Shown: positions 14,133-34,601 of the stretch, piece by piece
Numbering within the stretch: the stretch's first letter is position 1
How the letters are laid out: every line of letters begins with the position of its first letter
Position numbers and translations under genes: made by a program
The notes under the pieces: model-generated
Seen by the model: only the letters and a program-made list of their open reading frames with translations
Database searches by the model: none
Told to the model about the DNA's origin: nothing
Source: Oscillospiraceae bacterium
Lineage (GTDB): Bacteria > Bacillota > Clostridia > Oscillospirales > Oscillospiraceae
Assembly (NCBI GenBank): GCA_017428565.1
Contig: JAFRQP010000008.1
Location: 1-50,325, forward strand
Direction: 5' to 3'
DNA length: 50,325 nt

Positions 14133-14161
14133 TTGAAATGCATGACGGGATACGATAAAAT
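14133..14161 (+). promoter_or_regulatory. Promoter of the vWA-kinase-zinc-ribbon operon
   Basis: TTGAAA (14133-14138), 17-base spacer, TAAAAT (14156-14161), 45 bases before the vWA start. It lies in a locally AT-rich pocket. A pair of GGGAAAA-type segments (14036-14120) upstream could be regulator sites. I see no equally good promoter inside the following cluster. Confidence 0.7.
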
Positions 14162-14205
14162 AAAAGAAATTGTCGGGCAACGGCAAAGACGAAAGGAGAA
14201 AAGAA

Positions 14206-14892
14206 ATGGGAAGCAATTTTGGAAGCAGATACAACGTTGACATCTGCATGTGCATCGACGCTACGGGCAGCATGGGCCCCCTGCTGGACCTGGTCAAAAA
14301 CAACGCGCTTAGCTTTTACGGAGACCTGAAGGATCGCATGGCCGCCAAGGACAAGCACGTGGACGAGCTGCGCGTGCGCGTGATCGCCTTCCGCGACTAT
14401 CTGGCCGACGGGAAGGACGCCATGCTGGCTTCTCCTTTCTTTGTGCTTCCGGAGCAGGCGCCGGAGTTTGAGGCGCTGGTGCGCGGCATCCAGCCCCGCG
14501 GCGGCGGCGACGATCCGGAGGACAGCCTGGAGGCGCTGGGCTACGCCATCAAGTCCAAGTGGACCACCGGCGGCGACAAGCGCCGGCACGTGATCGTCCT
14601 GTGGACGGACGACGTGCCCCATGATCTGGGCTTCGGCGCGGCGGCCCCCAACTACCCCAGCAAGATGGCCAAGAGCTTCGATGAGCTGACCGAATGGTGG
14701 GGCGTGGGCGGCCAGAACGGCGTCATGAACGCCAACGACAAGCGCCTGCTGATCTACGCGCCCAACAAGGGCTACTGGAACGACATCATGGGCATCTGGG
14801 ACAACACCCTGCTCTTCCCCTCCGAGGCGGGCAAGGGCCTGGAGGAAGCCACGTATTCCGAGATCCTGGACGCGATCACCAACAGCATCTGA
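14206..14892 (+). CDS. von Willebrand factor A domain protein (TerY-like)
   Basis: 228 residues, essentially one vWA domain. The MIDAS metal site is visible as D18-A-T20-G-S22, with a later Asp in WTDDVPHD; the insertion WWGVGGQNGVMNANDKR precedes the last strands. Cytoplasmic, no signal peptide or TM segment. vWA proteins bind partner proteins through a divalent metal; in TerY-P triads the vWA protein is encoded with a kinase and a PP2C phosphatase, as here. Start ATG 14206 is chosen because AAAGGAG lies just before it; an upstream in-frame start has no ribosome site. First gene of the operon, 30 bases before the kinase. Confidence 0.88.
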   Translation: MGSNFGSRYNVDICMCIDATGSMGPLLDLVKNNALSFYGDLKDRMAAKDKHVDELRVRVIAFRDYLADGKDAMLASPFFVLPEQAPEFEALVRGIQPRGGGDDPEDSLEALGYAIKSKWTTGGDKRRHVIVLWTDDVPHDLGFGAAAPNYPSKMAKSFDELTEWWGVGGQNGVMNANDKRLLIYAPNKGYWNDIMGIWDNTLLFPSEAGKGLEEATYSEILDAITNSI

Positions 14893-14922
14893 GTATCTGA
14901 CAGCGAAAGGGGTTAAGACCCG

Positions 14923-15831
14923 ATGAGTACCGTAATCAACGGCTACCGCCTCACCAAGGAGCTGAGCAACGAAAACGCCGGCATGTGCACCTGGGGCTTC
15001 GCGGTAAAAAACGGTCACGAGTATTTTATCAAGCAGTTCCTCAACCCCAAATATCCCGACAGCAACGGCCGCCTCTCGCCCGCCCTGGTGGAGAAGATGC
15101 GCAGCGCAGCCGACGCGGTCTTCCGCAAGCGCAAGCAGTTCTATGACCGCCTGCGGGAGTGCCGCACCGGCAACAACGTGGTGGTGGAGGAGTATTTCCG
15201 CTCCGGGAACTTCTACTACGCCGTGTCGGACCGGATCCGCGGGCCCTACCTGACGGTGGAGCAGATCGCCGCCCTGCCGGACGAGAAGAAGCAGGTGCTG
15301 ATCCGGGCGATCCTGTTCAACGTGATGCAGTTTCACGAGAAGAACATCGTCCACTCCGACCTGAAGCCGGACAACATCATGGTCCGGCGCACCGCCGAGG
15401 GCTACTGCACCGCCAAGATCATCGACTTTGACGCCGGCTTTTTCAGCTTTGACCCGCCCAAGGAGATCTCCGGGGACCAGGTGTATTTTCCCCCGGAGGT
15501 GCTGCTGTACAATATGGGCAGGGAGGCCGTGATCTCCGAGAAGGGGGACATCTTTGCCCTGGGGCTGCTGTTCCATCAGTACTGGTGCGGCGTGCTGCCC
15601 GGCTTCAACCGGGAGGAGCACCGCTACGCCAGCGAGGCGCTGCTGGAGGGGGACGCCCTGCAGCTGAGCGTCCACGCCATGCCCGAGAATGTGAGCAGGC
15701 TGCTGGCTCGGATGCTGTCCATCGATCCGGCGGATCGTCCCACCGCCCGGGAGGCTTGGGAAAGCCTGTCCGAGAAGATCATCCGGGTCCTCAACACCCA
15801 GTTCTATGAGCTGAGCGACGACGATCTGTAA
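14923..15831 (+). CDS. Atypical Ser/Thr protein kinase with acidic DDDL tail
   Basis: 302 residues, one kinase domain and no TM. The ATP-anchoring Lys is K37 (YFIKQF), the catalytic loop is HSDLKPDN with D146, K148 and N151, and the metal Asp is D168. DFG is replaced by DFDAG, and the Gly-rich loop is poor (NENAGMCTWGFA), as in atypical bacterial kinases of stress operons; both HxD and the metal Asp remain, so activity is plausible. The C-terminus ends ELSDDDL, a tail shared with four other proteins of the operon. It is the second gene, directly after the vWA gene, and its likely opponent is the PP2C encoded two genes on. Probable targets are the zinc-ribbon proteins. Confidence 0.88.
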   Translation: MSTVINGYRLTKELSNENAGMCTWGFAVKNGHEYFIKQFLNPKYPDSNGRLSPALVEKMRSAADAVFRKRKQFYDRLRECRTGNNVVVEEYFRSGNFYYAVSDRIRGPYLTVEQIAALPDEKKQVLIRAILFNVMQFHEKNIVHSDLKPDNIMVRRTAEGYCTAKIIDFDAGFFSFDPPKEISGDQVYFPPEVLLYNMGREAVISEKGDIFALGLLFHQYWCGVLPGFNREEHRYASEALLEGDALQLSVHAMPENVSRLLARMLSIDPADRPTAREAWESLSEKIIRVLNTQFYELSDDDL

Positions 15832-15862: not shown

Positions 15863-16285
15863 ATGAATCTGAGCGACGACCAGGTTTTCGCCGTCGTGCT
15901 GGTGGCGCTGGTGGCCCTGCTGGGCATTCTGATCATCATGGCGGCGGCGCGCGCCTCCGCAGAAAAGAAGAGAAAGACCGGCGGCACCGCCCCGGTCAAA
16001 AAGGCCCCCGAGGCCGAGAAGAAGCCGGAGCCGGCGAAGGACCCGGTCAAAAAGGCCCCCGAGCCCGAGAAAAAGCCCAAGCTGATGGGCTCCATGGCCC
16101 GGAAGGACGCGCCGGTCACCCCGGCGGGCGGAGATCCCGTCCGGCGGGAGGGCGAGAGCGACCGGGACAAAAAGAGCATCGACGAGCGCATCGCGGAGAA
16201 GAACGGCCAGTGGGTCTGCCGCTACTGCGAGAGCATCAACGACCATACGCTGACCATTTGCCAGGCCTGCGGCAATCCCCGTTAA
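15863..16285 (+). CDS. Single-TM protein with C-terminal RanBP2-type zinc finger
   Basis: 140 residues. One TM helix (about 8-28) is followed by basic AEKKRK, so the rest should be cytoplasmic. Then come two copies of a Lys/Pro/Glu repeat (DPVKKAPEPEKKP type), the motif KLMGSMARK, and a C-terminal finger with W-V-C-x2-C, then C-x2-C in the last 27 residues, spaced like RanBP2 fingers that bind protein or RNA. KLMGSMARK resembles KLMGRMSKK of the PP2C and the L-x-G-x-M repeats of the first subtilase. It follows the kinase by 31 bases with a GAAGGAG site. An adaptor role is likely but inferred. Confidence 0.75.
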   Translation: MNLSDDQVFAVVLVALVALLGILIIMAAARASAEKKRKTGGTAPVKKAPEAEKKPEPAKDPVKKAPEPEKKPKLMGSMARKDAPVTPAGGDPVRREGESDRDKKSIDERIAEKNGQWVCRYCESINDHTLTICQACGNPR

Positions 16286-16298: not shown

Positions 16299-17360
16299 AT
16301 GTTTTGCAAATACTGTGGAAAACCCGTGGACGAGACCACCATGCGCTGCAAGATCTGCGGCCGCCCGGTGGGACAGCTGGAGGGCGGAAACGGCTTCTGG
16401 GACCTGACGGGGGAGAAGCCCGCCGCGGAGCCCGCGGCGGACAACGCCGCCCTGCAGGAGCTGCAGGCGAAGGTGGACGGCCTGAAGGTCGAGCTCGACG
16501 CCCTGCGGGCAAAGCCCGCGGCGGTGAAAAAGAGCGGCCTGGGCGCGCTTGCGGCGCTGCTGGCCCTGCTGGCGCTGGCGGTGGCCGTCTTCGCCCTTTT
16601 CCAGCTGCGCGGCCTTGCCGGAAAGCTGGAGAAGAGCATGACGAGCCAGACCGGGCAGAGCGTGACCGTGATCCCGCCCTATCAGGGCTCTGCTCAGCAG
16701 GAGCCCGGGGAGCAGGGGAGCGCGGTGGTCCAGGATCCCGCGGACGCGGAGCAGACCAGCTCCGAGACCGGAAACGGCGAGGAGCAGCTTTCCCCGGACG
16801 AGCAGGGCACCGCGGCGGAGACGAACCGGCTGTATACCCCCTGGGAGCTGGCCCAGGATGGCCGGCTGGAGAGCTATGAGTTGGACGACGGCATCACCTA
16901 CGTGCTCTGGCCGGACTACTTTGACGGCCCCAGAGGGGAGAACGAGACCAAGCGGCAGAGCATCACCCCCCGGGATCCCATGATCCGGCAGACGGATGAG
17001 TTCCTGATCTTCAAGTCCTCCTTCCTTGGCCAGCACACGGGCGACCCCGAGCGCGGCATCGCCGCGGATCAGGGGAGCTTCGCGGTCTACTGGGCGCGGA
17101 TCGAGCTGGACGAGAACGGAAAGCCCAGCGGGGTCTTCCCCGTCGAGACGGCGCCGGATCCCCGGACACCGGATCCGGAGAAGGACCGGTTTATCGACCG
17201 GATCGCCCCGGGCAACTCCCACTCTCTGTACATCATCGGCGGCGCGGAGGACGGCGAGGAGGGCTACTACGCCCTGATCGCAGAGAAGTCCAGCGACGTC
17301 TTCGCCGGCCACTATGCCTATATCAGCGATATCATCGAGCTCTATATCCCCAATCGGTGA
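16299..17360 (+). CDS. Zinc ribbon - coiled coil - TM - extracytoplasmic domain protein
   Basis: 353 residues. An N-terminal zinc ribbon (C3, C6, C17, C20; MFCKYCGKPV...CKICG) is followed by a predicted coiled coil (about 51-72), a TM helix (about 81-103), a Ser/Gln/Glu-rich linker and an extracytoplasmic domain of about 170 residues that I do not recognise. The inside-out arrangement (ribbon inside, domain outside) repeats that of the two subtilases further on. Start ATG 16299 has AAGGAGG upstream and lies 13 bases after the previous stop. It may couple an external ligand to the cytoplasmic kinase and phosphatase. Confidence 0.75.
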   Translation: MFCKYCGKPVDETTMRCKICGRPVGQLEGGNGFWDLTGEKPAAEPAADNAALQELQAKVDGLKVELDALRAKPAAVKKSGLGALAALLALLALAVAVFALFQLRGLAGKLEKSMTSQTGQSVTVIPPYQGSAQQEPGEQGSAVVQDPADAEQTSSETGNGEEQLSPDEQGTAAETNRLYTPWELAQDGRLESYELDDGITYVLWPDYFDGPRGENETKRQSITPRDPMIRQTDEFLIFKSSFLGQHTGDPERGIAADQGSFAVYWARIELDENGKPSGVFPVETAPDPRTPDPEKDRFIDRIAPGNSHSLYIIGGAEDGEEGYYALIAEKSSDVFAGHYAYISDIIELYIPNR

Positions 17361-17384: not shown

Positions 17385-18356
17385 ATGGCCAGTAAATCGG
17401 AAGAAAAAAACAATATGATCGGCACGGTGGACTTCCTCTTCTCCTTTTGCGGGGAGAAAAAGCCCGGGAACGGGGAGGACAGCGTCCTCTATTCCCTGAA
17501 CATGAGCCAGGCCCTGGTGGGCGTGTTCGACGGCTGCGGCGGCTCCGGCGCCAGCCAGTACGGCGGTCTGCAGAACAAAACCGGCGCTTATGTGGCCTCC
17601 CGCGCCGCCTCGGCGGCCTATCGGGACTGGTTCGATTCTCTGGAGCCGGGGAAGGAGCCCTATCCCCAGGAGATCAAGGCCCGTATTCTGGAGTATCTCA
17701 GGCTCTGCGAGTCGAAGGGCGGCTCCGGCGGCGGCAGCAAGCTCATGGGCCGCATGTCCAAGAAGCTGCCCACCACCGCGGCGGTGGCCATCGCCCGGCC
17801 GGCCCGGGGCGGACTGGCGGACGTGCAGCTCCACTGGGCGGGGGACTCCCGGGTCTATCTGCTGGACGGGGAGGGCCTTGCCCAGCTCACCGAGGACGAC
17901 CTGGGCGGCATCGACGCCATGCGGAACCTGTCCGAGGACGGTGTGCTCACCAACGCGATCAATCTGACCACGGATTTCAGCATCCACAGCGCCCGCATCA
18001 CCGTGGGGCGGCCCTGCCTGCTCTTTGCCTCGACAGACGGCTGCTTCGGCTATCTGTCCACCCCCATGGAATTTGAGTATCTGCTGCTGAGCACCCTGCA
18101 GGCCGCGCCCAACGCCGCCGCCTGGGAGAAGGCGCTGGAGCAGGCGGTCGGGGAGACCGCCGGGGACGACTATACCGTCAGCGGCATGGCTCTGGGCTTC
18201 GGCAGCTTCGACAATCTGAAGCGCCAGCTGGCCGGGCGGACGGGGGAGCTGTACCGCAACTACATCCGCGGCCTGGAGAGCTGCACCAAGGAGGAAAAGC
18301 AGCAGCTCTGGGAGCATTACAAGAATCACTATCACCGCTATCTCTGCCGCCCCTGA
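17385..18356 (+). CDS. PP2C-type protein phosphatase
   Basis: 323 residues, cytoplasmic. The metal-binding residues of PPM phosphatases are all present: D49 in VFDGCGG, D154 in WAGDSRVYLL, D218 in STDGCF, and D261-D262 in GDDYTV. A Gly/Ser-rich insert carries KLMGRMSKK (from residue 119), a motif shared with the small TM/zinc-finger protein and the first subtilase. It should remove phosphates placed by the kinase encoded two genes upstream; vWA, kinase and PP2C together form the TerY-P-like core. The ATG at 17385 follows GGAGGCGGCC. A C-terminal helical extension of about 50 residues has no known motif. Confidence 0.9.
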   Translation: MASKSEEKNNMIGTVDFLFSFCGEKKPGNGEDSVLYSLNMSQALVGVFDGCGGSGASQYGGLQNKTGAYVASRAASAAYRDWFDSLEPGKEPYPQEIKARILEYLRLCESKGGSGGGSKLMGRMSKKLPTTAAVAIARPARGGLADVQLHWAGDSRVYLLDGEGLAQLTEDDLGGIDAMRNLSEDGVLTNAINLTTDFSIHSARITVGRPCLLFASTDGCFGYLSTPMEFEYLLLSTLQAAPNAAAWEKALEQAVGETAGDDYTVSGMALGFGSFDNLKRQLAGRTGELYRNYIRGLESCTKEEKQQLWEHYKNHYHRYLCRP

Positions 18357-18425: not shown

Positions 18426-19316
18426 ATGAAAGAAAAACTGTTTCAGCCCAAGGCACTGAGAATCCTTGTCTGTATCCTGCTGGTGGCAAGCCTTGCGACC
18501 CTGTTTTTGCCCTGGGAGACGCTGACCATTGACGGAAAGCCCATGGGAGAACACTTGCGGCGGCTCGGCGTCCCGGTGGATGCGGCGCGGCAAATGCTGG
18601 GAAACGAGCTGACAAACGAGTTTGGCGGCGACGGGATGCTTCTTGCAATGGACAGCATTCTGACGGGCAAGACCTCCTTTGTGCAGCGGGCTCGGATCCT
18701 GGGGAAAACGGGAGACACGCTGCAGAACATGACCGGCCCGATGCTGGAGATCCTGGCCGAGTCCGGCCTTCAGGATACAGAGGAAGGGCCGCTCGTGATG
18801 AAGATGCTCCGGATGGTTCTGGAATGGGGGAGAGATGAGATGTACCTCTTTGCCGGGATCTATTGGGGCGTGATGGTGCTGATGGTTCTGCTTGCGGCGC
18901 TGGCCTTCTTCTGCTTCTGCAAGGGCAAGCGGGGCGGCATGATCCCCTATCTGGTGCTCTCAGCCTGCCTGTGCGGGATCACGGCCTTTGGCGTCTGGCA
19001 GGCAAACAGCCTTATGAACCTGTATGCGGAGCTGCTGCAGTCGGTTCCGGATTTCCAGATGGGGCTGTCGGTGGTGGGCATCCACAGCCTGCGGAATCTG
19101 TACGGCCTGGGCTGCGGCGCCTGGCTGTGCGTGCTGTTCGCGGCTCTGGCCTTTGCCCTCAGCTTTGTGAAACCCCGTACCCCCGCCCATGAGGCGTTGA
19201 CGGAGACACCGAAGGAGCCGGAAGCTGCAACGGCAAGCGATCCTGCTCCTCAGAAGGAAGAGCCGGAAGCCCTTGAAGCCGCTGCCCCGGAGAGCGGGGA
19301 GCAGACGCAGGTCTGA
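18426..19316 (+). CDS. Four-TM membrane protein of the cluster family, without zinc ribbon
   Basis: 296 residues. It is the first of eight paralogues that share an N-terminal TM helix ending in LATLFLPW, an extracytoplasmic segment, three more TM helices and a GxGAWL motif before the last one. TM helices lie at about 11-30, 143-165, 172-192 and 230-250. The cytoplasmic tail is acidic and Ala/Pro/Glu-rich and lacks the zinc ribbons of most paralogues. ATG 18426 follows ACAGGAGG. Function unknown; the family may be the membrane scaffold of the system. Two strong hairpins follow the gene. Confidence 0.75.
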   Translation: MKEKLFQPKALRILVCILLVASLATLFLPWETLTIDGKPMGEHLRRLGVPVDAARQMLGNELTNEFGGDGMLLAMDSILTGKTSFVQRARILGKTGDTLQNMTGPMLEILAESGLQDTEEGPLVMKMLRMVLEWGRDEMYLFAGIYWGVMVLMVLLAALAFFCFCKGKRGGMIPYLVLSACLCGITAFGVWQANSLMNLYAELLQSVPDFQMGLSVVGIHSLRNLYGLGCGAWLCVLFAALAFALSFVKPRTPAHEALTETPKEPEAATASDPAPQKEEPEALEAAAPESGEQTQV

Positions 19317-19327
19317 GCCTGAAAACA

Positions 19328-19457: not shown

Positions 19458-21269
19458 ATGCCTGCGAAAACCAAGACTTCCCTGGTGATGAAGATCGTCG
19501 CCGTGGTGCTGATCCTGGCCAGCGCCGCCATGCTGTTTCTGCCCTGGATGAAGGTGTCCGTCTCCATGAACGGCATGACCCTGTCCGGCAGCGAGATCGT
19601 TCAGATGTCCGGCCAGAGCATGGACGCGTTCAGGATGGAGATCCGGGAAAAGGCTAATGAACTCGCCGAGGACGCGCAGTGGGACTACGGCATCCAGCTG
19701 GACGCGGAGAAGCTGATCGACACCATGATGCTGATCGTGCGCTTTTCCTGGTCCCCCTTCTCCCTGAGCAAGCTCCTGGGGAACGTAAAGAGCCTGACGC
19801 CGCAGCTGATGCGGATCGTGGAGCAGGAGAGCGGCTACATGAGCGCCACCTTCCAGGAGGCCTCCTCCAAGCTGGGCCTGGCCCGGATCGTGCTGCTGAT
19901 CCTCCTGATCCTGACCCTGGCCATGGCCGCTGTCGCCGTTGTCTGCGCGCTGACGGATCATAAGCTGGGCATGATCCCGTATCTGGTCTTTGCGCTGATC
20001 CTGCTGGTGCTCTTTATCGTGCTGATCGCCGTCGCCAACAATCATATGGGCGAGATCGGCGCGCTGATGGACTCCGGCAATGAGTTTGCCAATTCTGTTT
20101 CCCTCCGCATCGGCGTGGGCGGCATCCTGTGCCTGGTCTTCGCCGTTCTGGGCTTTGTGGCCATGTTCCTCCCCATCGGGAAGAGAGAAGTCGCTTATGC
20201 CGGGACCCCCGCCCGCGCCATGAGCTGGATCTGCCCCGGCTGCGGCGCGAAGCGCAAGGCCGGCGAGCAGTTCTGCCTGAACTGCGGCGCCAGGCGGCCG
20301 GAGTCCGCTCCGCCGCGCCCCGCGGTCCCCGCCGGCTGGAAGTGCCCCACCTGCGGCACCATGCTCAAGGCGGACCAGCGCTTCTGCCTGTACTGCGGCA
20401 CCAAGCAGCCCGAGCAGGCAGCCCACGCCGGGGACGGCATGTTTGCCCCGAAGGGCCCCGCCGCCGGAAGCAGCTGCGCCAAGTGCGGCGCTCCTCTGAA
20501 AGCCAATCAGAAATTCTGCCCCGCCTGCGGCGCCAAGCAGCCGGAGGCCGCGGCTCCCGTACCTGTGACCCGCGCCCCCGCCGGCTGGACCTGCCCGGGC
20601 TGCGGCGCCAAGCTGAAGGCCAGCCAGAAATTCTGCCCCACCTGCGGCGCCAAGCAGCCGGAGGGCGCGGCTCCCGCGCCTGCGATCCGTGTCCCCACCG
20701 GCTGGACCTGCCCGGGCTGCGGCGCCAAACTGAAGGCCAGCCAGAAATTCTGCCCCACCTGCGGCGCCAAGCAGCCGGAGACGGCGGCCCCCGCCGCTCC
20801 CGCCGGCTGGACCTGCCCCAGCTGCGGCAGCAAGCTGCTTGACAGCCAGAAATTCTGCCCCCGCTGCGGCACGAAGAAGCCGGAGCCCGTCGCCCCGGCT
20901 CCCGCGCCGGCCAAGGCGCCCGCCGTCTGCGCGGCCTGCGGCGCCGCGCTGCTGGAGGGCATGCCCTTCTGCCCCAAGTGCGGCACCCGCGTTGAGCAGC
21001 CCAAGGAGGAGCTTTGGGCCGCCCCCGCCATCCCTGCGGAGGAGCCTGCGGCCCCGAAGGAAGAGACGCCGCTTCCCCTCGTTCCGGAGATGCCCGCCGT
21101 CCCGGAGGAGCCCGCGGCGCCTGTGATCCCGGACGTTCCGGCGATCCCGGAAGTCCCGGTGATTCCCGAGACCCCTGTGATCCCCGAGGCCCCCGTGATC
21201 CCGGCCCCGCCGGTGAACCCTGAGCCTTCTTTCGGCGGCTTCCAGGTCCCCGGTGACGATGACCTGTAA
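19458..21269 (+). CDS. Four-TM protein with seven cytoplasmic zinc ribbons and acidic DDDL tail
   Basis: 603 residues. The N-terminal four-TM domain (LASAAMLFLPW motif; helices to about residue 240) is followed by seven C-x2-C-G...F-C-x2-C-G zinc ribbons between about 259 and 513, joined by Ala/Pro linkers with a GWxCP lead. Next comes a proline hinge of repeated VIPExP units, then the C-terminal sequence GGFQVPGDDDL. The RKK/GKR flanks place the ribbons in the cytoplasm. Ribbons 4 and 5 are nearly identical at the DNA level, a recent duplication. Start ATG 19458, after GGAAAGAGAG. This is the largest ribbon array here and a candidate hub for binding the kinase or other partners. Double zinc ribbons (DZR type) usually bind proteins or nucleic acids; which applies is unknown. 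Confidence 0.85.
   Translation: MPAKTKTSLVMKIVAVVLILASAAMLFLPWMKVSVSMNGMTLSGSEIVQMSGQSMDAFRMEIREKANELAEDAQWDYGIQLDAEKLIDTMMLIVRFSWSPFSLSKLLGNVKSLTPQLMRIVEQESGYMSATFQEASSKLGLARIVLLILLILTLAMAAVAVVCALTDHKLGMIPYLVFALILLVLFIVLIAVANNHMGEIGALMDSGNEFANSVSLRIGVGGILCLVFAVLGFVAMFLPIGKREVAYAGTPARAMSWICPGCGAKRKAGEQFCLNCGARRPESAPPRPAVPAGWKCPTCGTMLKADQRFCLYCGTKQPEQAAHAGDGMFAPKGPAAGSSCAKCGAPLKANQKFCPACGAKQPEAAAPVPVTRAPAGWTCPGCGAKLKASQKFCPTCGAKQPEGAAPAPAIRVPTGWTCPGCGAKLKASQKFCPTCGAKQPETAAPAAPAGWTCPSCGSKLLDSQKFCPRCGTKKPEPVAPAPAPAKAPAVCAACGAALLEGMPFCPKCGTRVEQPKEELWAAPAIPAEEPAAPKEETPLPLVPEMPAVPEEPAAPVIPDVPAIPEVPVIPETPVIPEAPVIPAPPVNPEPSFGGFQVPGDDDL
20583..20820 (+). repeat. 117-bp tandem coding repeat (zinc-ribbon units)
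   Basis: Units beginning GGCTGGACCTGCCC start at 20583 and 20700 (period 117 bases, 39 codons) with very few differences, and a third begins at 20804 after a shorter linker. Each unit codes for one zinc ribbon plus its linker. In-frame gain or loss of units would change ribbon number without breaking the gene. Confidence 0.85.
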
Positions 21270-21329: not shown

Positions 21330-22328
21330 ATGCCAAAGCGCAAAAGCCCCGTATTTGTGAAAATCATCGCCTGTCTGCTCCTGCTGGGCAGCTTTGCCTG
21401 CTTCTTTCTGCCCCAGCTGCCCTGGCTGAAGCTGTCCGCGGACGTTGGGCCCGACAAGGTGCGCATGAACCCCGGCGAGCTCATCCAGGCCTTTACCGGC
21501 ATGGACGCCGATACCGCCAAGGACATGGCTCTGGAGCGCATGAGCAGTCTTGGCCTCCCTCTTGACACGGTCTCCCTGTCCAGCCTGCTGGACCGGGTGC
21601 TGGATGGCCATTTCCGGCTGCTGGACTTCCCCCTGCTCTGCGGGGAGATCGGCGTTCTCTGCCGGGATCTCCAGCGGCCCGACGTGGGCCGGCAGCTGGA
21701 CACGGCAAAGCTGGTGCTCTGGATCGTGATCGGCCTGCTGGCCCTGCTGGGCGTGATCGCCCTGATCTGCCTGCTGACGGATCACCGCTGGGGCATCCTG
21801 CCCTATTTCCTGCTGGCCGCGCTGATCACGGCGGGCCTGTACCTGCTGCGCGCCGAGCTGAACCGGACCCTGGTGGAGGAGAGCGACGCGCTGCTCTCCG
21901 GCGTCGGGCTCAGCGGCGTCATCGCCCTGCTGGGCGTGGACGTGGAGCTGGTGAAGATGGGCATCGGCGCGCTGCTCTGCCCCTTCCTGGCGCTGCTGGC
22001 CATGCTGCTGCTGTGCATCCGCAAAAAGAAGAGCGCCGCAAGCCCCTATCCCGCGCGGAGAGAGCCCACAGGCAGCGCCCAGGCGCCCCGCCCCCGGGAA
22101 GAGGGCTGGACCTGCCCCAACTGCGGACGGATCTGCGAGCGGGACGGCAATTTCTGCAAGTTCTGCGGGACCGAGCGTCCCAGACTTCCCGGCGCCCTGT
22201 TCTGCCCCTCCTGCGGCGTCCAGCTCACCCCGGGCGCGACCTTCTGCAGCGAATGCGGCAGCCCGGTCCGCGCGCCGCGGATGGAGGAGAGCACGATCTT
22301 CCGCATGCCCGGGGAAGACGGACGCTGA
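21330..22328 (+). CDS. Four-TM protein with two zinc ribbons
   Basis: 332 residues, a paralogue of the preceding gene. The first TM helix ends FFLPQLPW; three further helices follow at about 130-150, 160-180 and 205-230, then RKKKSAASPYPARR, marking the cytoplasmic side. Two zinc ribbons (from about 262 and 292) have C-x2-C-G...F-C-x2-C-G spacing. The C-terminus is MPGEDGR, acidic but without the D-x-D-L end. The extracytoplasmic segment between TM1 and TM2 (about 30-125) differs strongly from its paralogues, so that side may meet different partners. Confidence 0.8.
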   Translation: MPKRKSPVFVKIIACLLLLGSFACFFLPQLPWLKLSADVGPDKVRMNPGELIQAFTGMDADTAKDMALERMSSLGLPLDTVSLSSLLDRVLDGHFRLLDFPLLCGEIGVLCRDLQRPDVGRQLDTAKLVLWIVIGLLALLGVIALICLLTDHRWGILPYFLLAALITAGLYLLRAELNRTLVEESDALLSGVGLSGVIALLGVDVELVKMGIGALLCPFLALLAMLLLCIRKKKSAASPYPARREPTGSAQAPRPREEGWTCPNCGRICERDGNFCKFCGTERPRLPGALFCPSCGVQLTPGATFCSECGSPVRAPRMEESTIFRMPGEDGR

Positions 22329-26676: not shown

Positions 26677-27288
26677 ATGGATGTCGTTCTCATTATTTTT
26701 GGCGTGATTGCCCTGATCCTTACGATCTTGAGCATGATCTTCATCGTCCCCAGGAACAGAGAGCCCCAGCTGAGCGGCTTTTTCAAGTGGCTGCACCACG
26801 TGTTCAACTTCGATTCCCTGCTGATCGAGCAGATCTTGAAATTCCTGTACATCCTCTGCAGCTTTGCCGCGGTCTTCCTGGGCCTTGCGGCGATCATCCA
26901 GAGCTTCAGCGGGGACGGAAGTGTTGCGCTGATCGGCCTGCTGCTCATCGTCCTGGGCCCCATCGTGATCCGTCTGCTCTACGAATCGATGATGATGTTT
27001 GTCATCCTGGTCAAGCAGGTGTCCGACATCAACCGCAAGATCAAAAACGAAAATCCCCGCAAGGGCGCCGACACGCCCTACGCTCCCCCTGCGCCCGTTG
27101 AGAGAGCGCCCCGCCCGGTGGCGCCCGTCTGCCCCAGCTGCGGCAGCAAAATGAGACCCGGCGCCAAGTTCTGCGGCATCTGCGGCTTCCGCGCGGAGCC
27201 CGCCCCTGCGCCCGCCCCCGCCCCTGCGCCCGCCCCCGCGCCGCAGCCCACTGCGAACAACTACTATCCCACCGACAACGACCTCTGA
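26677..27288 (+). CDS. Membrane protein (DUF4282-like) with zinc ribbon and DNDL tail
   Basis: 203 residues. It differs from the four-TM family: one N-terminal TM helix, then FFKWLHHVFNFDSLLIEQILKF and two or three further helices, a pattern like DUF4282 proteins. A single ribbon (CPSCGSKMRPGAKFCGICG, about 152-170) is followed by seven AP repeats and the acidic end YYPTDNDL. So a second membrane-domain type carries the same ribbon-plus-tail module. ATG 26677 is chosen because AAAGGA lies upstream at good spacing; the in-frame ATG at 26665 abuts it. A GC-rich hairpin with a broken T run follows. Confidence 0.78.
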   Translation: MDVVLIIFGVIALILTILSMIFIVPRNREPQLSGFFKWLHHVFNFDSLLIEQILKFLYILCSFAAVFLGLAAIIQSFSGDGSVALIGLLLIVLGPIVIRLLYESMMMFVILVKQVSDINRKIKNENPRKGADTPYAPPAPVERAPRPVAPVCPSCGSKMRPGAKFCGICGFRAEPAPAPAPAPAPAPAPQPTANNYYPTDNDL

Positions 27289-27398: not shown

Positions 27399-28574
27399 AT
27401 GCGTACCAAAAAAATGAACGGAAGAGGAGCCGGGATCCTGGTTATCCGGATTCTGGCCTGCCTGCTGCTGGCGGCGAGTCTGGCAACGCTGCTGCTCCCC
27501 TGGGCCTCCCTGCGCCTTGACGACGGAGGAGAGCGCGTCACCCTGCGGGAGCTGGCGAAGAGAGAGGAGCAGCGCAGCGGCCAAAGCTTCCGGGAGCGGG
27601 TCCTGTCCCGGCTTTCGGAGCAGGACGAGGGCCTGTACGCAGGCCTGCTGCGGACGATGGATCCGCTGCTGGACGACCGGATGAGCCCCCTGCGGGTCAC
27701 GGTCGCCTGCACCGGCGCCGCCCGCTGGCTCTCCAATACCAGCACGGCTGTTTCCCAGGGACCCGGCGCAACGGAGCCGGAGACCGCAAACTGGGTGCAG
27801 GACGTGCAGGCGTCGGCGTCCAAAGTGAAGATGACGTCGGTGTTTTTATGGGTTTTGCTTGTGATGCTCCTGGTCACGGGAGCTTATGCCATATACGCCG
27901 CAGCCGTGGGTTACGGCTTCGGTACGATCCCTTATCTGGTCTGCGCCCTGCCTGCCTTTCTGGGCGCGGTGCTGGCGGTGTCCCGGGCAAACGCCTGGTT
28001 CCGGGGCGCAAGCCTCTCCGCCGGGCTGATGCAGGCTGCGGTGAACGGGCTCAGCGCCGGGGGGAACCCCGTCTCCGTGCCCTTCCGCCTTGGCCTTGGC
28101 GCCATCCTTTTCGCCGCGCTGCTGGTGGCGGGCATCCTGCTGGCCATGTGCTCCCGGGAGCCGGCCGGGGCCCGGGGCGGGGAAGCCCCGCGTCCCGTCT
28201 CTGCCCTGCCGGCGGACCCAGCGGGGCCGGTCCTGGCGCCGAAGCCCTGGCGCTGCCCGGTCTGCGGCACCCTGATGGGCGATGGGGTCTACTGTGTCAA
28301 ATGCGGCAGCCGGAAGCCGGAGCCCCGCCGCTGCGGAAGCTGCGGCGCCCTGCTGGAGGAGGGGGCCCTCTTCTGCACCGCCTGCGGCGCTGCGGCGGAG
28401 AACCGGCGGAGCGCCCCGGCGGAGGAGCCTCCGGCCCGCCTGATTTCCACCATGAGGACCGGGACGGTCCGGCCCGCTGAGACCGCGCCGGTGCCGCAGA
28501 CCTTGCTCTGGAGCGGCAGCCGGAAGGAGAAGCAGGCCCCGGATCCCCGGATCCCGGACGATTCGGAACTGTAA
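27399..28574 (+). CDS. Four-TM protein with two zinc ribbons and DDSEL tail
   Basis: 391 residues. TM1 ends LATLLLPW; the extracytoplasmic segment is long (about 35-145) and helical, followed by three TM helices and FRLGLGAILF, the family motif. Two ribbons start at about 286 (CPVCG...YCVKCG, shorter than usual because the intervening loop lacks residues) and 312 (CGSCG...FCTACG). The tail is Ser/Arg/Thr-rich and ends RIPDDSEL, the loosest version of the D-x-D-L end. ATG 27399 is supported by GAAAGGAG. A Ser/Thr-rich tail would be a good kinase substrate, though this is only inferred. Confidence 0.8.
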   Translation: MRTKKMNGRGAGILVIRILACLLLAASLATLLLPWASLRLDDGGERVTLRELAKREEQRSGQSFRERVLSRLSEQDEGLYAGLLRTMDPLLDDRMSPLRVTVACTGAARWLSNTSTAVSQGPGATEPETANWVQDVQASASKVKMTSVFLWVLLVMLLVTGAYAIYAAAVGYGFGTIPYLVCALPAFLGAVLAVSRANAWFRGASLSAGLMQAAVNGLSAGGNPVSVPFRLGLGAILFAALLVAGILLAMCSREPAGARGGEAPRPVSALPADPAGPVLAPKPWRCPVCGTLMGDGVYCVKCGSRKPEPRRCGSCGALLEEGALFCTACGAAAENRRSAPAEEPPARLISTMRTGTVRPAETAPVPQTLLWSGSRKEKQAPDPRIPDDSEL

Positions 28575-28628: not shown

Positions 28629-30590
28629 ATGAAGACTTGCAAGCATTGCGGGGCCGGCAACCCGGATGAGCTCCGGGTCTGCGCCTTCTGCGGAAAAGAA
28701 CTGGACGAGGAAGAGAAGAAGCCGCGGTCCGGCCTGCTGGGCAGCATGGGCCGGAAGCGTTACGCCGCTCCGGAAGCGGGGGAGTCCGCACCCAAAGCGG
28801 AGGACGCCGCGCCTGCGGAGGAGCCCAAAGTGGAGGACGCTGCGCCTGCGGAGGAGCCCAAAGTGGAGGACGCCGCGCCCGAAGCGTCGGAGGGCTCTTC
28901 CGTGCGCAAGAGCGGCGGCCTTGCCGGACGCATGGGCAAGGTCCGCTATGAGAGCAAGGATGAGGGCAAGTCCGCCGAAAAGGAGGCAAAGCCGGAGTCC
29001 TCCCTGCGGAAGGACACGGGCCTTGCGGGGAAAATGGGCGATGTACGTTATGGCACCAAGCCAAAGGACTCCCCGCCTTCCGCGCTGAAGGACACGGGGC
29101 TCGCCGGCAAGATGGGCGAGGTGCGCTACGGCACCAAGCCCAAGGATTCCCCGGAGGAGCCGCGGCCCGCGGAGCCGGAGAAGAAAAAGCGCCCGGACAA
29201 GGGCGTGATCGTCGCCGTATCGCTGGCGGTGCTGGCGGCGGCGGCCTCGGTGCTGCTGGTGTTCTGGGACGCCATCTTCGGCAGCGCCCAGCTCTACGGC
29301 GCGGGCATCGGCGGCTACATCAACTACTACCGTCCCGTCGAGGAAGAGGAGATCGTCGAGGAAGACGGCGTCCGCTATGTAGGCGATCAGATGCTCATCG
29401 TCTCCGCCTTCGGTGCCAGCTATGAGGAGATGGAGACCTTCTTCGAAGAGCGGGACATGGAGATCATCGGCTATGTGGAGCTGATCGATACCTATCAGGT
29501 GCAGCTGGACAAGTCCTACACGCTGTCGGAGCTGCACACCATGGCAAGCGAGCTGGAAAAGGACGGGCTGGTGGATTCCGCCACGGTCAACACCGTGCGG
29601 GAAAACGCCGACTTCTCCATCCCCTCGGACCCCTGGGACGGCAATTCCGACTGGGACGAGCCCAGCCCCTACAGCGGCAACTGGGGCGTGGTGGCCATCC
29701 ACGCGCCGGAGGCCTGGGAGCGCTGGGAGCCCAGCGTGGTGCGGGTCGGCGTGCTGGACAGCATGTTTGACGAGGGGAACCGGGATCTGAACGTCGTCAT
29801 GACCCGCGGCAACGAGGTCTATGACCGCACCCCCAACAATGACGACAAGGCCCACGGCACCCACGTGTCCGGCACCATCGGCGCCATTCACGACAACGGC
29901 TACGGCGTGGCGGGCGTGGCGGAAAACTGCGAGATCTACGGCTACTCCGCCTCCCGCTACAGAACCACAATGGACGAGGTCAGCGCCATGGCGGAGCTGG
30001 CGGCCCAGGACGTGCGGGTCATCAACTACAGCATGGGTCTGATCGACGAGTACCGGGACGCGGCCATCGAGCGCAATGGCGTGGAGCGGGATATTTACTA
30101 TCACTATGCCGCGGCCTTTTCCCAGACGGCGATGAAGCACCTGCTGCGCAAGGGCTATGACTTCATCCTGGTCTGCGCCGCCGGCAACGACCCGGTGGAG
30201 GCCAAGTGGGCCAGTGAGTACGCCTATATCACCGACCCCATGATCCGGGACCGGATCATTGTGGTCGGCGCCGCCGAGGTGGATCGGGACGGGCACTATT
30301 CCCTGACCTACTTCAGCGCCAGGGGCGAGCGGATGGACGTGGTCGCCCCGGGAATGGACATCTACAGCACCATGCCCGGCGGAGGCTTTGACTATATGAG
30401 CGGCACCTCCATGGCGACGCCTCATGTCACCGGCGTCACCGCCAGCGTATGGGCCATTGCGCCGAACCTGTCGGGAGCGGAGGTCAAACGCATCGTGGTG
30501 AGCACGGCGACCACTCCGGTCTCCGGCACCGGTGTGGGCATGATCAATATGGAAGCCGCCATGGCGGCGGCGGAAGCAGCGGCAAGATAA
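28629..30590 (+). CDS. Membrane-anchored subtilisin-like protease with cytoplasmic zinc ribbon
   Basis: 653 residues. An N-terminal zinc ribbon (C4, C7, C18, C21) is followed by four L-x-G-x-M-G repeats (GLLGSMGRKRY, GLAGRMGKVRY, GLAGKMGDVRY, GLAGKMGEVRY), a TM helix (about 192-214) and an extracytoplasmic peptidase S8 domain. Before the catalytic part lies a prodomain-like segment (YVELIDTYQVQL...). The triad is intact: D377 in VGVLDS, H409 in AHGTHVSG, S594 in SGTSMATPH; the oxyanion Asn is in CAAGND. It should cut proteins outside the membrane while its ribbon and repeats meet the cytoplasmic kinase/phosphatase side. No classical signal peptide; the TM acts as a signal anchor. It precedes a paralogue by 18 bases. 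Confidence 0.9.
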   Translation: MKTCKHCGAGNPDELRVCAFCGKELDEEEKKPRSGLLGSMGRKRYAAPEAGESAPKAEDAAPAEEPKVEDAAPAEEPKVEDAAPEASEGSSVRKSGGLAGRMGKVRYESKDEGKSAEKEAKPESSLRKDTGLAGKMGDVRYGTKPKDSPPSALKDTGLAGKMGEVRYGTKPKDSPEEPRPAEPEKKKRPDKGVIVAVSLAVLAAAASVLLVFWDAIFGSAQLYGAGIGGYINYYRPVEEEEIVEEDGVRYVGDQMLIVSAFGASYEEMETFFEERDMEIIGYVELIDTYQVQLDKSYTLSELHTMASELEKDGLVDSATVNTVRENADFSIPSDPWDGNSDWDEPSPYSGNWGVVAIHAPEAWERWEPSVVRVGVLDSMFDEGNRDLNVVMTRGNEVYDRTPNNDDKAHGTHVSGTIGAIHDNGYGVAGVAENCEIYGYSASRYRTTMDEVSAMAELAAQDVRVINYSMGLIDEYRDAAIERNGVERDIYYHYAAAFSQTAMKHLLRKGYDFILVCAAGNDPVEAKWASEYAYITDPMIRDRIIVVGAAEVDRDGHYSLTYFSARGERMDVVAPGMDIYSTMPGGGFDYMSGTSMATPHVTGVTASVWAIAPNLSGAEVKRIVVSTATTPVSGTGVGMINMEAAMAAAEAAAR

Positions 30591-30608: not shown

Positions 30609-33026
30609 ATGATGCGTTGCGCGCATTGCGGTCAGGAGCTGCCCGAGGAGGGCCTGTTCTGCCCGTATTGCGGGGAGGAGATCGCGCCCCCTTTGACCGA
30701 CGCGGAGGAGCGGACGGCGCCGGAGGCGGAGCCTGTCCCGGAAGCGCCGGAGACGGAGCCTGTCCCGGAAGCGCCGGAGGCGGAGCCTGTCCCGGAGGCG
30801 CCGGAGGCGGAGCCCGTCCCGGAAGCGCCGGAGGCGGAGCCTGTCCCGGAGGCGCCGGAGGCGGAGCCCGTCCCGGAAGCGCCGGAGGCGGAGCCCGTCC
30901 CGGAAATGCCGGAGGACCGGGAGCGCGAAGATGACAAACAGCGCTGGAAGCCGGGCTGGAAATGGCTCCGGACTCTCGATGGAAAGCTGCTCCGGAAGCC
31001 GAAGGCGCCAAAAAAGGAAAGACCGCCCCGGGACTGGGAGAAGATCAAGAGGATCTTCCGCATCATCGGCGGCGTTTTGACCGGCATCGGGCTGATCGCC
31101 CTTCTGGTCGTGGCCGTGGTGCTGATGCGCATGAGCCGGGAGGTCCGGGGTACGACGGGTGAGACAGAGAACCCCGCGCTGCCGGCACGACCGGAGGCCA
31201 TCAACTTCGTCTCTCAGACGGACGCTGCCCGGGTCCGCACGGACGGGGGCGTACAATATCTGGACAATGAGCTGATCGCCGTCTCGGCAGAGGGCGTGAG
31301 CTACACGGAAATGGAGCGCTTCTGCGGGCTGTGGGATCTGCGGATCATCGGCTATGTGGAGCTGACGGACACCTATCAGCTCCGTCTGCCGGAGGCCCAC
31401 ACCCTGGAGGGCCTGGACCGCCTGGCCCGGGAGCTGGAGCAGGAGGAGCTGGTGGACTGCGCCATGCCCAACGTGGTGTGGGTGCCCGGCGCCTTTGCCG
31501 CGCCGGAGGATCCCTGGGGCGGACAGACCGACTGGGAGAAGCCCCAGCTGGGAAAGGACAACTGGGGCCTTGCGGCCATCCGCGCCCCCGCCTGCTGGGA
31601 GAAATATCCTCTAGAGCTGGTGCGCGTCGGCGTCATCGACGGAGCCTTTGATTCCCGGCACCAGGATCTTCGCTACACGTCTCTCCGCCGCAACGAAGGG
31701 GAGCGGCGCAGCGACAGCGCCGACGCGATCCTCCTGCGGGAACACGGGACCATGGTGGCCTCGGTGCTGGGGGCGGTGCACGGCAACGGCCAGGGGCTCA
31801 GCGGCGTGCTGAGCGACTGCGCGCTCTACGCCGTGGGCTCGCCTCTCTACTGCAGCCAGATGGACGCGCTCAGCGCCATCGCGGCCCTCTCGGGCCAGGG
31901 CGTGAGCCTGATCCACTACGGCCTGGGCTATCGGGAGGAGCTGATCGCCGGTGCCCTGGAGGGCCAGGCGCTGCTTCGCGGCTATTACTATGAGGAAGCG
32001 GGGCGCATCAGCTCTCTTGCGCTGCGGCGGCTGCTGGGGAAGGGCTGCGATTTCCTGCTGGTGATCCCCGCCGGCAACGGCTTGGCGGGCGTCCCGGTGG
32101 ACGCGGCCTGGAGCAGCCTCTTTGCCAGTCTCAGCGATCCGGAGCTGCGCAGCCGGATCCTGGTGGTGGGCGCCGCCGGGATCGAGAAGGACGGCAGCTA
32201 CGTCCAGGCGCCCTTCAGCAACATCGGTTCCCGGGTGGATCTGCTGGCCCCCGGGGTGCAGATCTACTGCGCCCTGCCCAACAACGCCTATGCCCGGCGG
32301 GACGGGAGCTCCCTGGCCTCGGCCCACGCCGCCGGCGTCTGCGCCGCGGTCTGGGCGGCCAACCCCGCTCTCAGCGGGGCGCAGGTGCGGGACCTGCTGG
32401 TGGAAAGCGCAGGGACCCCCGTGACCGGCGGCAGCGCCTTTATGATCGATATGGAGGCGGCCATGGAGGCAGCCGTGCGCAGCGCCGGCTCTCTCAGCGG
32501 ACCCGACGAGAGGGAGCGGGCTCTGGACGCCTATGCCGCCCTGCTGAACCGGGGCGTGCAGCTGCGGCTGCGGAGCCTCCCGGGGGAGGCCGGCGGCCTC
32601 ACCATGGACGCGCAGTACTATCTGCTCCTGGATATGGACGGCGACGGGGTGGAGGAGATCCTGCTCTACGCGCTGAATCCGGCGGAGCGCTATGCCAGCT
32701 TTGCCATCTACGCCTATCGGGGCGGTGAGGTGCTGCGCATCGCCGATGCCTGGGACAGCTGCCGCTTCGCCTCCTGGTCCAATGTCACGCTGACGCTGGA
32801 GGTCTGCGACGGACGCTATGTTTACGCCAGCGCGGAGAAAAGCTCCGCCGGCTACGGCGAGTCCGGGGAGCGCTACTGGCTCAGCTTCGACGGCAGAGAG
32901 CTGAGCTGCACCCAGGAGGATCTGCGGGAGAGAAGCGAGGAACGTGTCATCCTGATCTTCAAGTCCTCGCTGACCCGGGCCGGCATCCGCATCGGCTCGG
33001 CGGAGGACGAGCTGCTGAGACGCTGA
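30609..33026 (+). CDS. Second membrane subtilase with zinc ribbon, PVPE repeats and C-terminal extension
   Basis: 805 residues. It has the same ribbon spacing as the first subtilase (C4, C7, C18, C21), then seven 9-residue EAEPVPEAP repeats (39-101), a TM helix (about 153-174), a prodomain-like segment ([12 protein letters not shown]) and a peptidase S8 domain. D344 (VGVIDG), H379 (REHGTM) and S568 are kept, but the Ser motif reads [11 protein letters not shown] instead of GTSMATPHVAG, so specificity or activity may differ. About 200 extra residues at the C-terminus include [15 protein letters not shown], like a calcium-binding FG-GAP-type segment. It is probably the product of duplication and divergence of the previous gene. 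ATG 30609 and 30612 are both possible; 30609 fits the GAAGGAG site. Confidence 0.85.
30723..30911 (+). repeat. 27-bp minisatellite (seven units) in the second subtilase gene
   Basis: Seven tandem 27-base units, each coding for E-x-E-P-V-P-E-x-P (EAEPVPEAP in most copies), fill 30723-30911. They differ at a few silent positions (CCT/CCC, GAA/GAG). The period is a multiple of three, so copy-number change would alter linker length between the ribbon and the membrane without a frameshift. Confidence 0.9.
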
Positions 33027-33060
33027 GCGCGAAACCCTGAAAGAAAAAGGAGAGGGATCC

Positions 33061-34176
33061 ATGCCCTTTTTCATCGTTCGCAACGATATCACCAAAATGC
33101 AGGTGGACGCCATCGTCAACGCCGCCAGGCCCAGTCTGCTGGGGGGCGGCGGAGTGGACGGCGCCATCCATGCCGCCGCGGGGCCGGAGCTTCTGGAGGA
33201 GTGCAGGACCCTGGGCGGCTGCGAGATCGGCCAGGCCAAGCTCACCCGGGGCTACCGTCTGCCGGCGCGCTGGGTGATCCACACGGTGGGCCCGGTTTGG
33301 CACGGCGGCCTCTTCGGGGAGCGGAAAAAACTCCTGTCCTGCTACCGGAACTCCCTTGCGCTGGCGGCGGAGCAGGGCTGCGAGAGCGTGGCCTTCCCCC
33401 TGATCTCCTCCGGCGCCTACGGCTACCCCAAGGACAAGGCTCTGGATGCGGCCCGGGAGGCCATCGAGGGCTTCCTGCAGGAGCAGGACATGACCGTTTA
33501 CCTGGTGGTCTACGGGGAGGAGAGTCTGAGCGCCTCCCAAAAGCTCTTCGCGGAGGTCCGGGAGTATATCGACCGGGAATATGTGCGGCAGCACCCCTAC
33601 CGCCGCAACGAAGCCGCGCGGAAGGCGGCCCTCCGGGAGGAGAGCGGGAGCTTCCCCGCGCCTGGCGCGATCCAGGAGGAGGACGCGAACTCCGCGCCGC
33701 TCTTCATGATCCCTGCGCCGAAAAAGCGGAAGGAGAGCGCGATCTGTCCGCCCGCGCCCGCTCAGAGCGACGGCGGCTTGTGGGAGGAGGAAAGCAGCGG
33801 CGAGCCGGGAAACTGGCCCTTCGGCCGCCTGGACGAAAGCTTCCAGCAGATGCTGCTGCGGCTGATCGACCAGCGGGGCATGACCGACGCGGAGTGCTAC
33901 AAGCGGGCCAATATCGACCGTAAGCTCTTTTCCAAGATCCGCAAGGACGTGCATTACAAGCCCTCCAAGCCGACGGTCCTGGCCTTCGCCGTGGCCCTGC
34001 GGCTGGAGCTGGGGGAGACGGAGGAGCTGCTGGAGAAGGCGGGCTTCGCCCTGTCCCGCAGCAGCGAATTCGATCTGATCCTGCGCTATTACATCGAGCG
34101 GCGCGTGTACGATGTTTTCAGGATCAACGAGGCTCTGTTTGAATTCGATCAAACGCTGCTGGGGACGCTGTCATGA
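33061..34176 (+). CDS. Macro domain protein with a C-terminal helical (Xre-like) domain
   Basis: 371 residues. The N-terminal macro domain (about 1-165) keeps the ligand-binding motifs: [18 protein letters not shown] and the later [11 protein letters not shown]. Such domains bind or hydrolyse ADP-ribose and its derivatives. After a Pro/Glu-rich linker, a C-terminal helical domain (about 255-371) contains [26 protein letters not shown] and [23 protein letters not shown], which resembles a helix-turn-helix (Cro/Xre-like) fold often fused to macro domains in Firmicutes. Macro domains also occur in Ter-type stress clusters. The start has AAGGAGAGGG upstream; the end overlaps the next gene by four bases. 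Confidence 0.85.
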
Positions 34177-34601
34177 TTTATACGGAACAGACAAACAAGG
34201 CCATGCGCCTGGCCTATGAGGCGCATCAGGGACAGTGGGACAAGAGCGGGGTGCCCTATGTGTTCCACCCGCTGCACCTGGCCGAGCAGATGCCCGACGA
34301 GGACTGCACCGTGGCGGCCCTGCTGCACGACGTGGTGGAGGACACGGAAACCACGCTGGAGGATCTGCGGAAGATGGGCTTTTCGCCCCGGGCCCTGGAG
34401 GCGGTGTCACTGCTGACCCACGATCCTGCGGAGCCCTATCTGGACTATGTGGCCCGGGTGAAGCAGAATCCGGTGGCCAGGACCGTGAAGCTGGCGGATC
34501 TGCGGCACAACAGCGATCTGCGCCGCATCGACCGGGTGACGGAGAAGGATTTAGCCAGGGTGGAGAAGTATGCCGCGGCCATACGGCTGCTGGAGGACTG
34601 A
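34173..34601 (+). CDS. HD-domain phosphohydrolase (small SpoT-like type)
   Basis: 142 residues. HxxHP and LLHDVVEDT mark the HD metal-binding site of the RelA/SpoT hydrolase family (ppGpp or related nucleotide hydrolase), and [14 protein letters not shown] is the characteristic late motif. No synthetase or TGS domain is present, so it resembles small alarmone hydrolases. It overlaps the macro-domain gene by ATGA (34173-34176), showing tight coupling, and may close the cluster with a nucleotide-signal activity. Confidence 0.82.

Follow-up and report, generated by a model that had tools for sequence, protein, structure and literature searches.

The closest described relatives of the locus considered here combine a von Willebrand factor A (vWA) protein with a protein kinase and a PP2C phosphatase. 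In the TerY-P triad, a vWA protein and a PP2C are accompanied by a kinase with a C-terminal zinc ribbon (Anantharaman 2012, as cited in an excerpt of PMC11090510), and the excerpted passages of PMC7159879 describe in actinobacteria a theme of a kinase (with a ribbon or transmembrane (TM) helices), a PP2C and a stand-alone vWA protein in GAP1-N2 GTPase-centric systems, as well as S8 with NucA and trypsin. Such triads recur in bacteria. Here, we describe a locus of 19 genes in an Oscillospiraceae bacterium (assembly GCA_017428565.1; G000 in our genome codes) in which a vWA protein, a kinase and a PP2C are encoded together with many zinc-ribbon membrane proteins and two subtilases. The stretch analysed, hereafter the window, covers the entire contig JAFRQP010000008.1 of 50325 bases, and the parent genome is 2.69 Mb (84% complete). 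As judged from sequence comparison, our best reading is that the locus encodes a system related to the TerY-P triad and tethered to the membrane.

The vWA profile matched in 5/295 genomes of the order and in 17/391 genomes of the class, the window being counted in both, where three of the 17 matches are weak (family f78) and the loci of those three were not examined. Beyond the window, our comparison set consisted of 23 vWA loci from 22 other genomes, the genus included. When 21 vWA loci were examined with one gene caller (the window, G039 and G118 left out and the same-genus G111, G038 and G013 included), 54 genes with paired CxxC motifs and a TM segment were found in 351 kb, versus one in 283 kb of control (20 stretches of 2 to 19 kb, namely the beginning of contig 1 in each of the 20 genomes concerned). 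At least one such gene was present in 20 of the 21 vWA stretches versus one of the 20 controls. The membrane scaffold proposed in a first-pass annotation, which had been made from the sequence of the window alone, is supported, as is a tie between ribbon membrane proteins and vWA triads; the control of two outward-facing proteases and the role in envelope stress or defence that it also suggested are conjectural. The partners of the ribbon or finger vary: G308 and G038 have DUF805, G302 combines Sel1 repeats and a RanBP2-like finger, and the finger protein in G838 has TPR. Within the window genome, moreover, 21 of all 36 Zn_Ribbon_1 matches at E <=0.001 fall in the 20-kb cluster (two of the 21 under the curated cut-off); this concentration is more than chance, but the binomial value of 1.5e-35 is an overstatement, given that the ribbons come from 10 genes and arose in part as tandem copies.

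Kinases and operon partners furthermore share a short C-terminal tail. In the window, the kinase (g2; genes are numbered along the strand) ends in FYELSDDDL, and three membrane proteins end in GFQVPGDDDL (g7), GFYNAGDEDL (g13) and NYYPTDNDL (g14); many kinases of other families end in WFSSAGDL, WFKPAGDL, WFHHAGDL and similar. We searched open frames of at least 60 codons, with no gene calling, for the strict pattern [WFY]x(1-3)[APG][GTS]D(xx)[LF]-stop. It was found in 26 of 2468 frames in 24 stretches covering the 23 other vWA loci versus none of 2538 in 30 control stretches (20 contig starts and 10 S8 loci of order genomes; L071, having its own kinase and PP2C, was excluded), and about 0.13 would be expected from the rate inside proteins. 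The window carries it in three of 395 frames (g7, g13 and g14), and none of 795 frames in five vWA-less loci had it. By reading, we assigned the 26 carriers to 11 kinases and 15 operon partners (12 with TM and three soluble ribbon proteins). When called genes were counted instead, using a pattern that differed slightly, the tail was present in 9/22 kinases, 13/110 ribbon proteins, 4/304 other genes at the loci and 0/272 in controls. A narrower pattern, F..[AG]GDL, derived from kinases outside family f1, was present in 10 of 2445 non-kinase frames and again in none of the 2538 controls. Tail variants are also shared within a locus: the kinase and the ribbon-DUF805 protein of G038 both end in PTDF, and both ends in G511 are TGGDL. 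We did not find an FxxAGDL-type tail common to kinases and operon partners described in the open-licence literature searched. The genes of the locus and its flanking features are as follows.

13026..14012, + strand: WYL/WCX transcriptional regulator (WYL 1.1e-11, WCX 1.7e-13), upstream at 9/9 loci including the window
14133..14161, + strand: operon promoter-like site TTGAAA-17-TAAAAT (10/12 consensus; block conserved in 8 genomes)
14206..14892, + strand: g1, vWA protein with MIDAS-like DxTxS..GGxD..TD (VWA_4 28 bits, cut-off 27)
14923..15831, + strand: g2, Ser/Thr kinase with the tail FYELSDDDL (Pkinase 1.4e-22; catalytic K, HxD and DFD present)
15863..16285, + strand: g3, one TM and a C-terminal RanBP2-like zinc finger WxCx2Cx3Nx6Cx2C (Pfam RanBP 6e-4, under cut-off)
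16299..17360, + strand: g4, adaptor with N-terminal zinc ribbon, GNGFWDL, TM and variable C-terminal domain; core
17385..18356, + strand: g5, PP2C phosphatase (PP2C_2 3.4e-6); core
18426..19316, + strand: g6, four-TM protein without ribbon
19458..21269, + strand: g7, four-TM protein, seven ribbons, tail
21330..22328, + strand: g8, four-TM protein (five hydrophobic peaks in one analysis), two ribbons; core
22424..23089, + strand: g9, four-TM protein, two ribbons
23221..23946, + strand: g10, four-TM protein, one ribbon (weak in Pfam)
24022..24738, + strand: g11, four-TM protein, two ribbons
24745..25251, + strand: g12, four-TM protein without ribbon
25425..26564, + strand: g13, four-TM protein, four ribbons, tail
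26677..27288, + strand: g14, four-TM protein, DUF4282-like (just under cut-off), one ribbon, tail
27399..28574, + strand: g15, four-TM protein, two ribbons; its end DDSEL is tail-like, outside the tail pattern
28629..30590, + strand: g16, ribbon-TM-subtilase whose linker bears four GLxGxMGxxRY-like copies (S8 7.3e-43)
30609..33026, + strand: g17, ribbon-TM-subtilase with an extra C-terminal part (S8 3.9e-26); core
33061..34176, + strand: g18, macro domain and possible HTH (0.023); loose neighbour
34173..34601, + strand: g19, SpoT-like HD protein (Pfam/NCBIfam); loose neighbour
34670..35761, + strand: AAA_28 ATPase and CYTH protein, downstream neighbour at 8/8 evaluable loci, in 70/102 genus genomes

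All 19 genes are on the + strand from 14206 to 34601, between the WYL regulator and the AAA-CYTH gene, with intergenic gaps of -4 to 122 bases when open reading frames are taken from their first start. The first-pass annotation was right about the common strand and the short gaps but had counted 18 genes; likewise, it had recognized the type of the membrane proteins while counting nine of them, seven with ribbons, and we find ten four-TM proteins (g6-g15), eight of which carry paired-CxxC ribbons (g7, g8, g9, g10, g11, g13, g14 and g15). The vWA protein, kinase, PP2C, zinc-finger (g3) and zinc-ribbon (g4) proteins with one TM each, two subtilases, macro and HD proteins that it had listed were all found by Pfam and by our reading of TM segments and CxxC motifs. 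The cluster is confirmed as real. Neither an Rfam match nor a tRNA was found in the respective scans, and long antisense reading frames (up to 1184 aa) were taken for shadows of GC-rich genes.

The members of the triad keep their active-site or metal-site residues. The metal-site residues DxTxS..D..D of g1 are retained in 29-33 of 34 aligned rows and the metal Asp residues of PP2C in 26-28 of 29; in the kinase alignment, the catalytic Asp residues are present in 25/25 and the Lys in 24/25, where one row is an unrelated PrkC-like protein (the window is included in all three). The kinase g2 (302 aa) has neither a paired CxxC nor a Pfam ribbon. At the 23 other vWA loci, a kinase was found in 21 and a PP2C in 22 (E 1e-8, in the stretch examined); the stretch of L171 stops at the contig end, and L178 has no kinase or PP2C at this threshold. 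A plasmid of Herpetosiphon also carries vWA-PP2C-kinase, and no paired-CxxC protein was found in 16.7 kb around it; ribbon-free triads therefore exist. Searching the PDB with the vWA profile gave integrin beta-8 at 0.004, a weak match. In a tree of 26 PP2C rows (those of G013, G302 and G810 being too divergent to be included), G039, which has the vWA protein, stands beside G006, which lacks it (support 99/98), and at least two changes in vWA presence are demanded. Also, we noticed that in one genome of the same genus (L025, contig 21 of G013) the vWA genes number six, five of them in tandem, and occur along with a fusion of PP2C and kinase and with another kinase, and that a separate vWA protein is encoded downstream of our locus at 36845-37564 on the + strand (VWA_CoxE 8e-5, under cut-off), in flanks whose annotation is poor.

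Across the genus sample of 102 genomes, many of which are incomplete, the linkage put forward in the first-pass annotation holds: the order WYL-g4-PP2C-g8-S8 (g17) is identical at all nine loci, that is, in every genome having the locus (G000, G118, G039, G006, G043, G116, G021, G100 and G120, where the contig of G021 ends inside the S8 gene). A PP2C was matched in 12/102 genomes, nine at >=60% identity, and the same nine carry the S8 protein at this locus; the S8 profile also matched 12/102 genomes, but those of G030, G112 and G114 are located elsewhere. The second subtilase, g16, is present at 4/9 loci and the vWA protein with the kinase at 3/9, a vWA protein of the window family occurring anywhere in the genome in 6/102. 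The constant core is, in other words, g4-PP2C-g8-g17 and not the triad. Although the macro and HD genes are there in the window as annotated, they are found at only 6/8 and 5/8 evaluable loci and hence look like loose neighbours of the cluster; the AAA-CYTH gene also occurs at genus loci without the core. The loci of G100 and G120, which are classed as different species, share 99.93% identity over 8.6 kb (L046 220-8857, L047 5051-13688), which is either recent transfer or binning contamination, and they are therefore not independent. Relatives of the subtilase are found in metagenome bins including RUG12056, RUG502, RGIG5982 (sheep omasum), RUG166 and RUG180, in which we take the prefix RUG to stand for rumen; five of the eight such loci in bins are this locus, and three lack its core. 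A mobile island was set aside because the flanks are constant in several genomes, where the flanks were not screened for mobile genes.

The beginning of the locus is conserved as well. A consensus scan gave three promoter-like sites versus 1.8 expected and thus carries little weight by itself; what sustains the one clear promoter of the first-pass annotation is the block GATACGATAAAATA with an upstream CTTG, which precedes the first gene of the locus in eight genomes. The block is exact in G000, G118, G039, G116, G021 and G100; the copy in G043 differs by a single substitution and that in G006 by three. It is followed by the vWA gene in three genomes (G000, G118, G039) and by g4 in the remaining five; therefore, the vWA-kinase-g3 block is present or absent between the same promoter block and g4. 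The WYL/WCX protein upstream is likely the regulator of the operon.

In the adaptor g4, the first 40 residues are 85% identical on average between pairs within the genus and the section after the TM 43%. The motif GFxD(I/L) near residue 32 is present in 17 of 46 distinct proteins with an N-terminal ribbon and TM (67 loci over 5 kb), spanning the seven families f1, f3, f19, f43, f44, f69 and f76, and all 17 adjoin vWA and/or PP2C genes; the adaptor occurs at 15/24 vWA loci, counting the window and G118. In 15 aligned adaptors, all picked for the motif, M1, both CxxC pairs, G32, F33 and D35 are invariant (L168 numbering). The motif persists, as GNSFWDL in G006, at loci that lack vWA and kinase and retain PP2C, and would therefore serve PP2C. 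Over the phylum, the adaptor profile matched 17/299 genomes (window included), and GFxD was found at one of 25 loci, that of the window. We did not find a ribbon + GFxD adaptor described in the open-licence literature searched. The C-terminal domain of g4 gave weak Pfam matches only and one PDB match, titin at 0.052; its comparison with an Ig-bearing protein of the window was negative, and only visual inspection suggests an Ig-like fold.

Both subtilases consist of an N-terminal ribbon, one TM and the subtilase domain. D344, H379, N490 and S568 of g17, which by motif are presumably the S8 triad and the oxyanion Asn, are invariant in 11/11 aligned proteins. The numbers of Lys and Arg residues beside the TM, on the ribbon or finger side versus the other, are 6 vs 0 in g16, 5 vs 3 in g17, 5 vs 0 in g3 and 4 vs 3 in g4; this charge bias supports a cytoplasmic location of the g16 and g17 ribbons and the g3 finger, and the protease domains of g16 and g17 probably face outward. 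The linker between ribbon and TM in the window g16 has four GL(L/A)GxMGxxxY-like copies. There are likewise four in G039, one of which starts with AL, and three in G118, and there are none in G006, the sole g16-bearing locus without vWA and kinase; these numbers are small. In g17, a 27-bp repeat of 7.4 copies (30717-30915) encodes an EAEPVPEAP linker between ribbon and TM. The S8 profile matched 11/394 order genomes including the window, and vWA was not matched in the stretches examined around S8 of the other 10; a general S8-triad linkage beyond the genus was thus rejected. Elsewhere, one secreted S8 protein lies near the vWA locus of G599, which could be chance. Ribbon-TM-subtilases are also encoded at L064, L072, L073 and L048, where the stretch examined gave no match to vWA, kinase or PP2C (L048 and L072 being short contigs). 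At L071 (G453), a subtilase has ribbon membrane proteins, an FHA protein and a kinase-FHA protein as neighbours, which may be a further phospho-signalling cluster that includes a surface protease. In G030 (L023 / L079), a TM-subtilase of the same family as those of the window, but lacking the ribbon, lies next to unnamed genes and, by eye, an rpsL-EF-Tu operon.

We consider that the locus may encode a membrane-tethered, TerY-P-related phospho-switch, to which tails and ribbons dock clients that here include the subtilases, and we put this at just under an even chance. Ribbons and tails would lie on the cytoplasmic face, and the metal site of the vWA protein would read the acidic tail, so collecting the kinase and the clients. 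The adaptor g4 with its ribbon and GNGFWDL would tether PP2C to the membrane, as the two are retained together at loci lacking vWA and kinase. Kinase and PP2C would then set the phosphorylation of the membrane assembly and alter the complex, by which the two outward subtilases, as the output, would be switched to cut surface or envelope proteins. If so, the locus would also exemplify a modular way in which bacteria can place surface proteases and membrane proteins under a phosphorylation switch. A wider and somewhat less probable proposal is that Clostridia possess a class of signalling machines at the membrane that has not been described before: the vWA protein would read a short acidic C-terminal tail (FxxAGDL) on the kinase and on any membrane or ribbon protein of the operon, clients would join simply by gaining a tail or ribbon, and the rumen version would have recruited surface subtilases, so that these bacteria have an outside protease controlled by a kinase. 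The tail common to the kinase and its operon partners provides a list of likely clients together with a peptide-binding test on one purified protein.

Several observations speak against the phospho-switch. By charge, seven of the ten four-TM proteins have more Lys and Arg opposite the N-terminus side, contrary to cytoplasmic ribbons, so that this prediction of the first-pass annotation stands by charge for g16, g17 and g3 but not for most four-TM proteins; as a counterpoint, a tail common to the soluble kinase argues for the cytoplasmic side. The strict tail occurs at only 14/24 vWA loci (window counted) and on the kinase at 11/22 loci having one, the kinases of the window and G118 match it only loosely, and no window protein fits F..[AG]GDL. 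No strict tail is present at G111, G302, G013, G810 (two), G759, G682, G842, G760 and G711, where several ends are loosely similar. Conversely, a four-TM protein of the vWA-less G006 ends in the loosely tail-like EGEDIL, and the loss of the tail together with vWA is thus not clear-cut. The p-values for the strict (Fisher 1e-8) and narrower (8e-4) tail patterns are guides only, because the patterns were shaped on the same loci and the loci are related. Since 6/9 core loci have neither vWA nor kinase, moreover, the core does not need them, and S8 is tied to this module in one genus only. On account of the four-TM charges and the EGEDIL end, we lowered our estimate slightly from an even chance.

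The main rival is an antiphage defence operon, in which the triad would sense infection and kill the infected cell by freeing the proteases or disturbing the membrane. A WYL regulator, of a type familiar from defence loci, is located ahead of the operon at 9/9 loci, the four-TM genes are expanded in tandem in some genomes, and TerY-P-like modules whose kinase has an OB-fold are reported to act as antiphage systems on their own (Gao 2020, as cited in an excerpt of PMC11090510). Still, the window, G118, G116, G043 and G021 have the locus at one and the same chromosomal site, preceded by two genes common to all five, where mobile genes in the flanks were not screened; Pfam gave no nuclease domain among the 19 genes; a PADLOC scan of 10 of them left vWA and PP2C unmatched and returned general kinase and subtilase models and otherwise weak matches (e.g., IetS at 3e-4); and no relative of the vWA protein was confirmed when viral contigs were scanned by pattern. 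We regard defence as unlikely. Just as unlikely, in our view, is that the tail acts as a degradation or targeting signal for a general cell factor instead of docking to vWA. C-terminal signals do typically consist of small, acidic and hydrophobic residues at a free C-terminus, and while strict tails are absent where vWA is absent, the kinase is absent there too; against a general signal are the complete lack of the tail in the control frames and the tail variants shared within two loci.

A role in secretion or the maturation of surface proteins, where the subtilases would be counterparts of the type VII mycosins and the four-TM proteins would build a platform for transport or assembly, is less probable still: the best NCBIfam match of g16 is the type VII secretion mycosin (2.5e-25), but at 89 bits against a cut-off of 279, and an EssC-like ATPase and WXG100 were unmatched among the 19 genes, most flanks and the rest of the genome not being searched. 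That unrelated stress genes merely gathered at one site appears very improbable. The variation of the macro and HD genes and the wide distribution of AAA-CYTH in the genus, core-less loci included, would fit it, but the fixed core order, the shared ribbons and tails and the conserved promoter block do not; coincidence is largely disfavoured for g4, g5, g8 and g17 by the conservation of the core, and would at most be true of g18, g19 and the flanks.

As for known systems, neither the gene set, as the first-pass annotation had supposed, nor the tail is named in the excerpts of open-licence PMC literature searched, which does not prove absence. Neither Ter genes nor restriction systems gave a Pfam match among the 19 genes, to which, with few of the flanking genes, this search was confined, and the McrBC homologues CnuB and CnuC and also CnuH/CnuE of CoCoNuT type II/III-A were unmatched among the same genes. 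For the vWA-MoxR ternary conflict systems, no AAA ATPase was matched among g1-g19, the downstream AAA_28-CYTH protein not being tested as MoxR. For the kinase g2, the best-scoring model in both NCBIfam and PADLOC is MAD6 of MADS, but membership was rejected at 67.8 against a cut-off of 460 bits, with no other MADS model in the 10 genes scanned. Mycosins are membrane-anchored S8 proteases, in which g16 and g17 resemble them; in the latter, however, anchor and ribbon are N-terminal and no secretion ATPase was matched among the 19 genes, and membership was rejected with TIGR03921 scores of 89.3 and 44.6 bits against 278.75. The GAP1-N2 theme likewise has kinase, PP2C and vWA side by side but is actinobacterial and tied to GTPase/GAP1 proteins, none of which was matched among the 19 genes. 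The likeness to the TerY-P triad that the first-pass annotation had pointed out is borne out, in that a vWA protein with a metal site, a PP2C and a kinase are encoded together with their active-site residues kept and zinc ribbons are involved; the TerY-like assignment of g1 means a vWA protein with a metal site (VWA_4), not compared directly with classical TerY. Unlike in that triad, the kinase of the window has no C-terminal ribbon, the ribbons being instead on separate, mostly membrane proteins, and the locus has in addition a shared C-terminal tail, membrane clients and subtilases.

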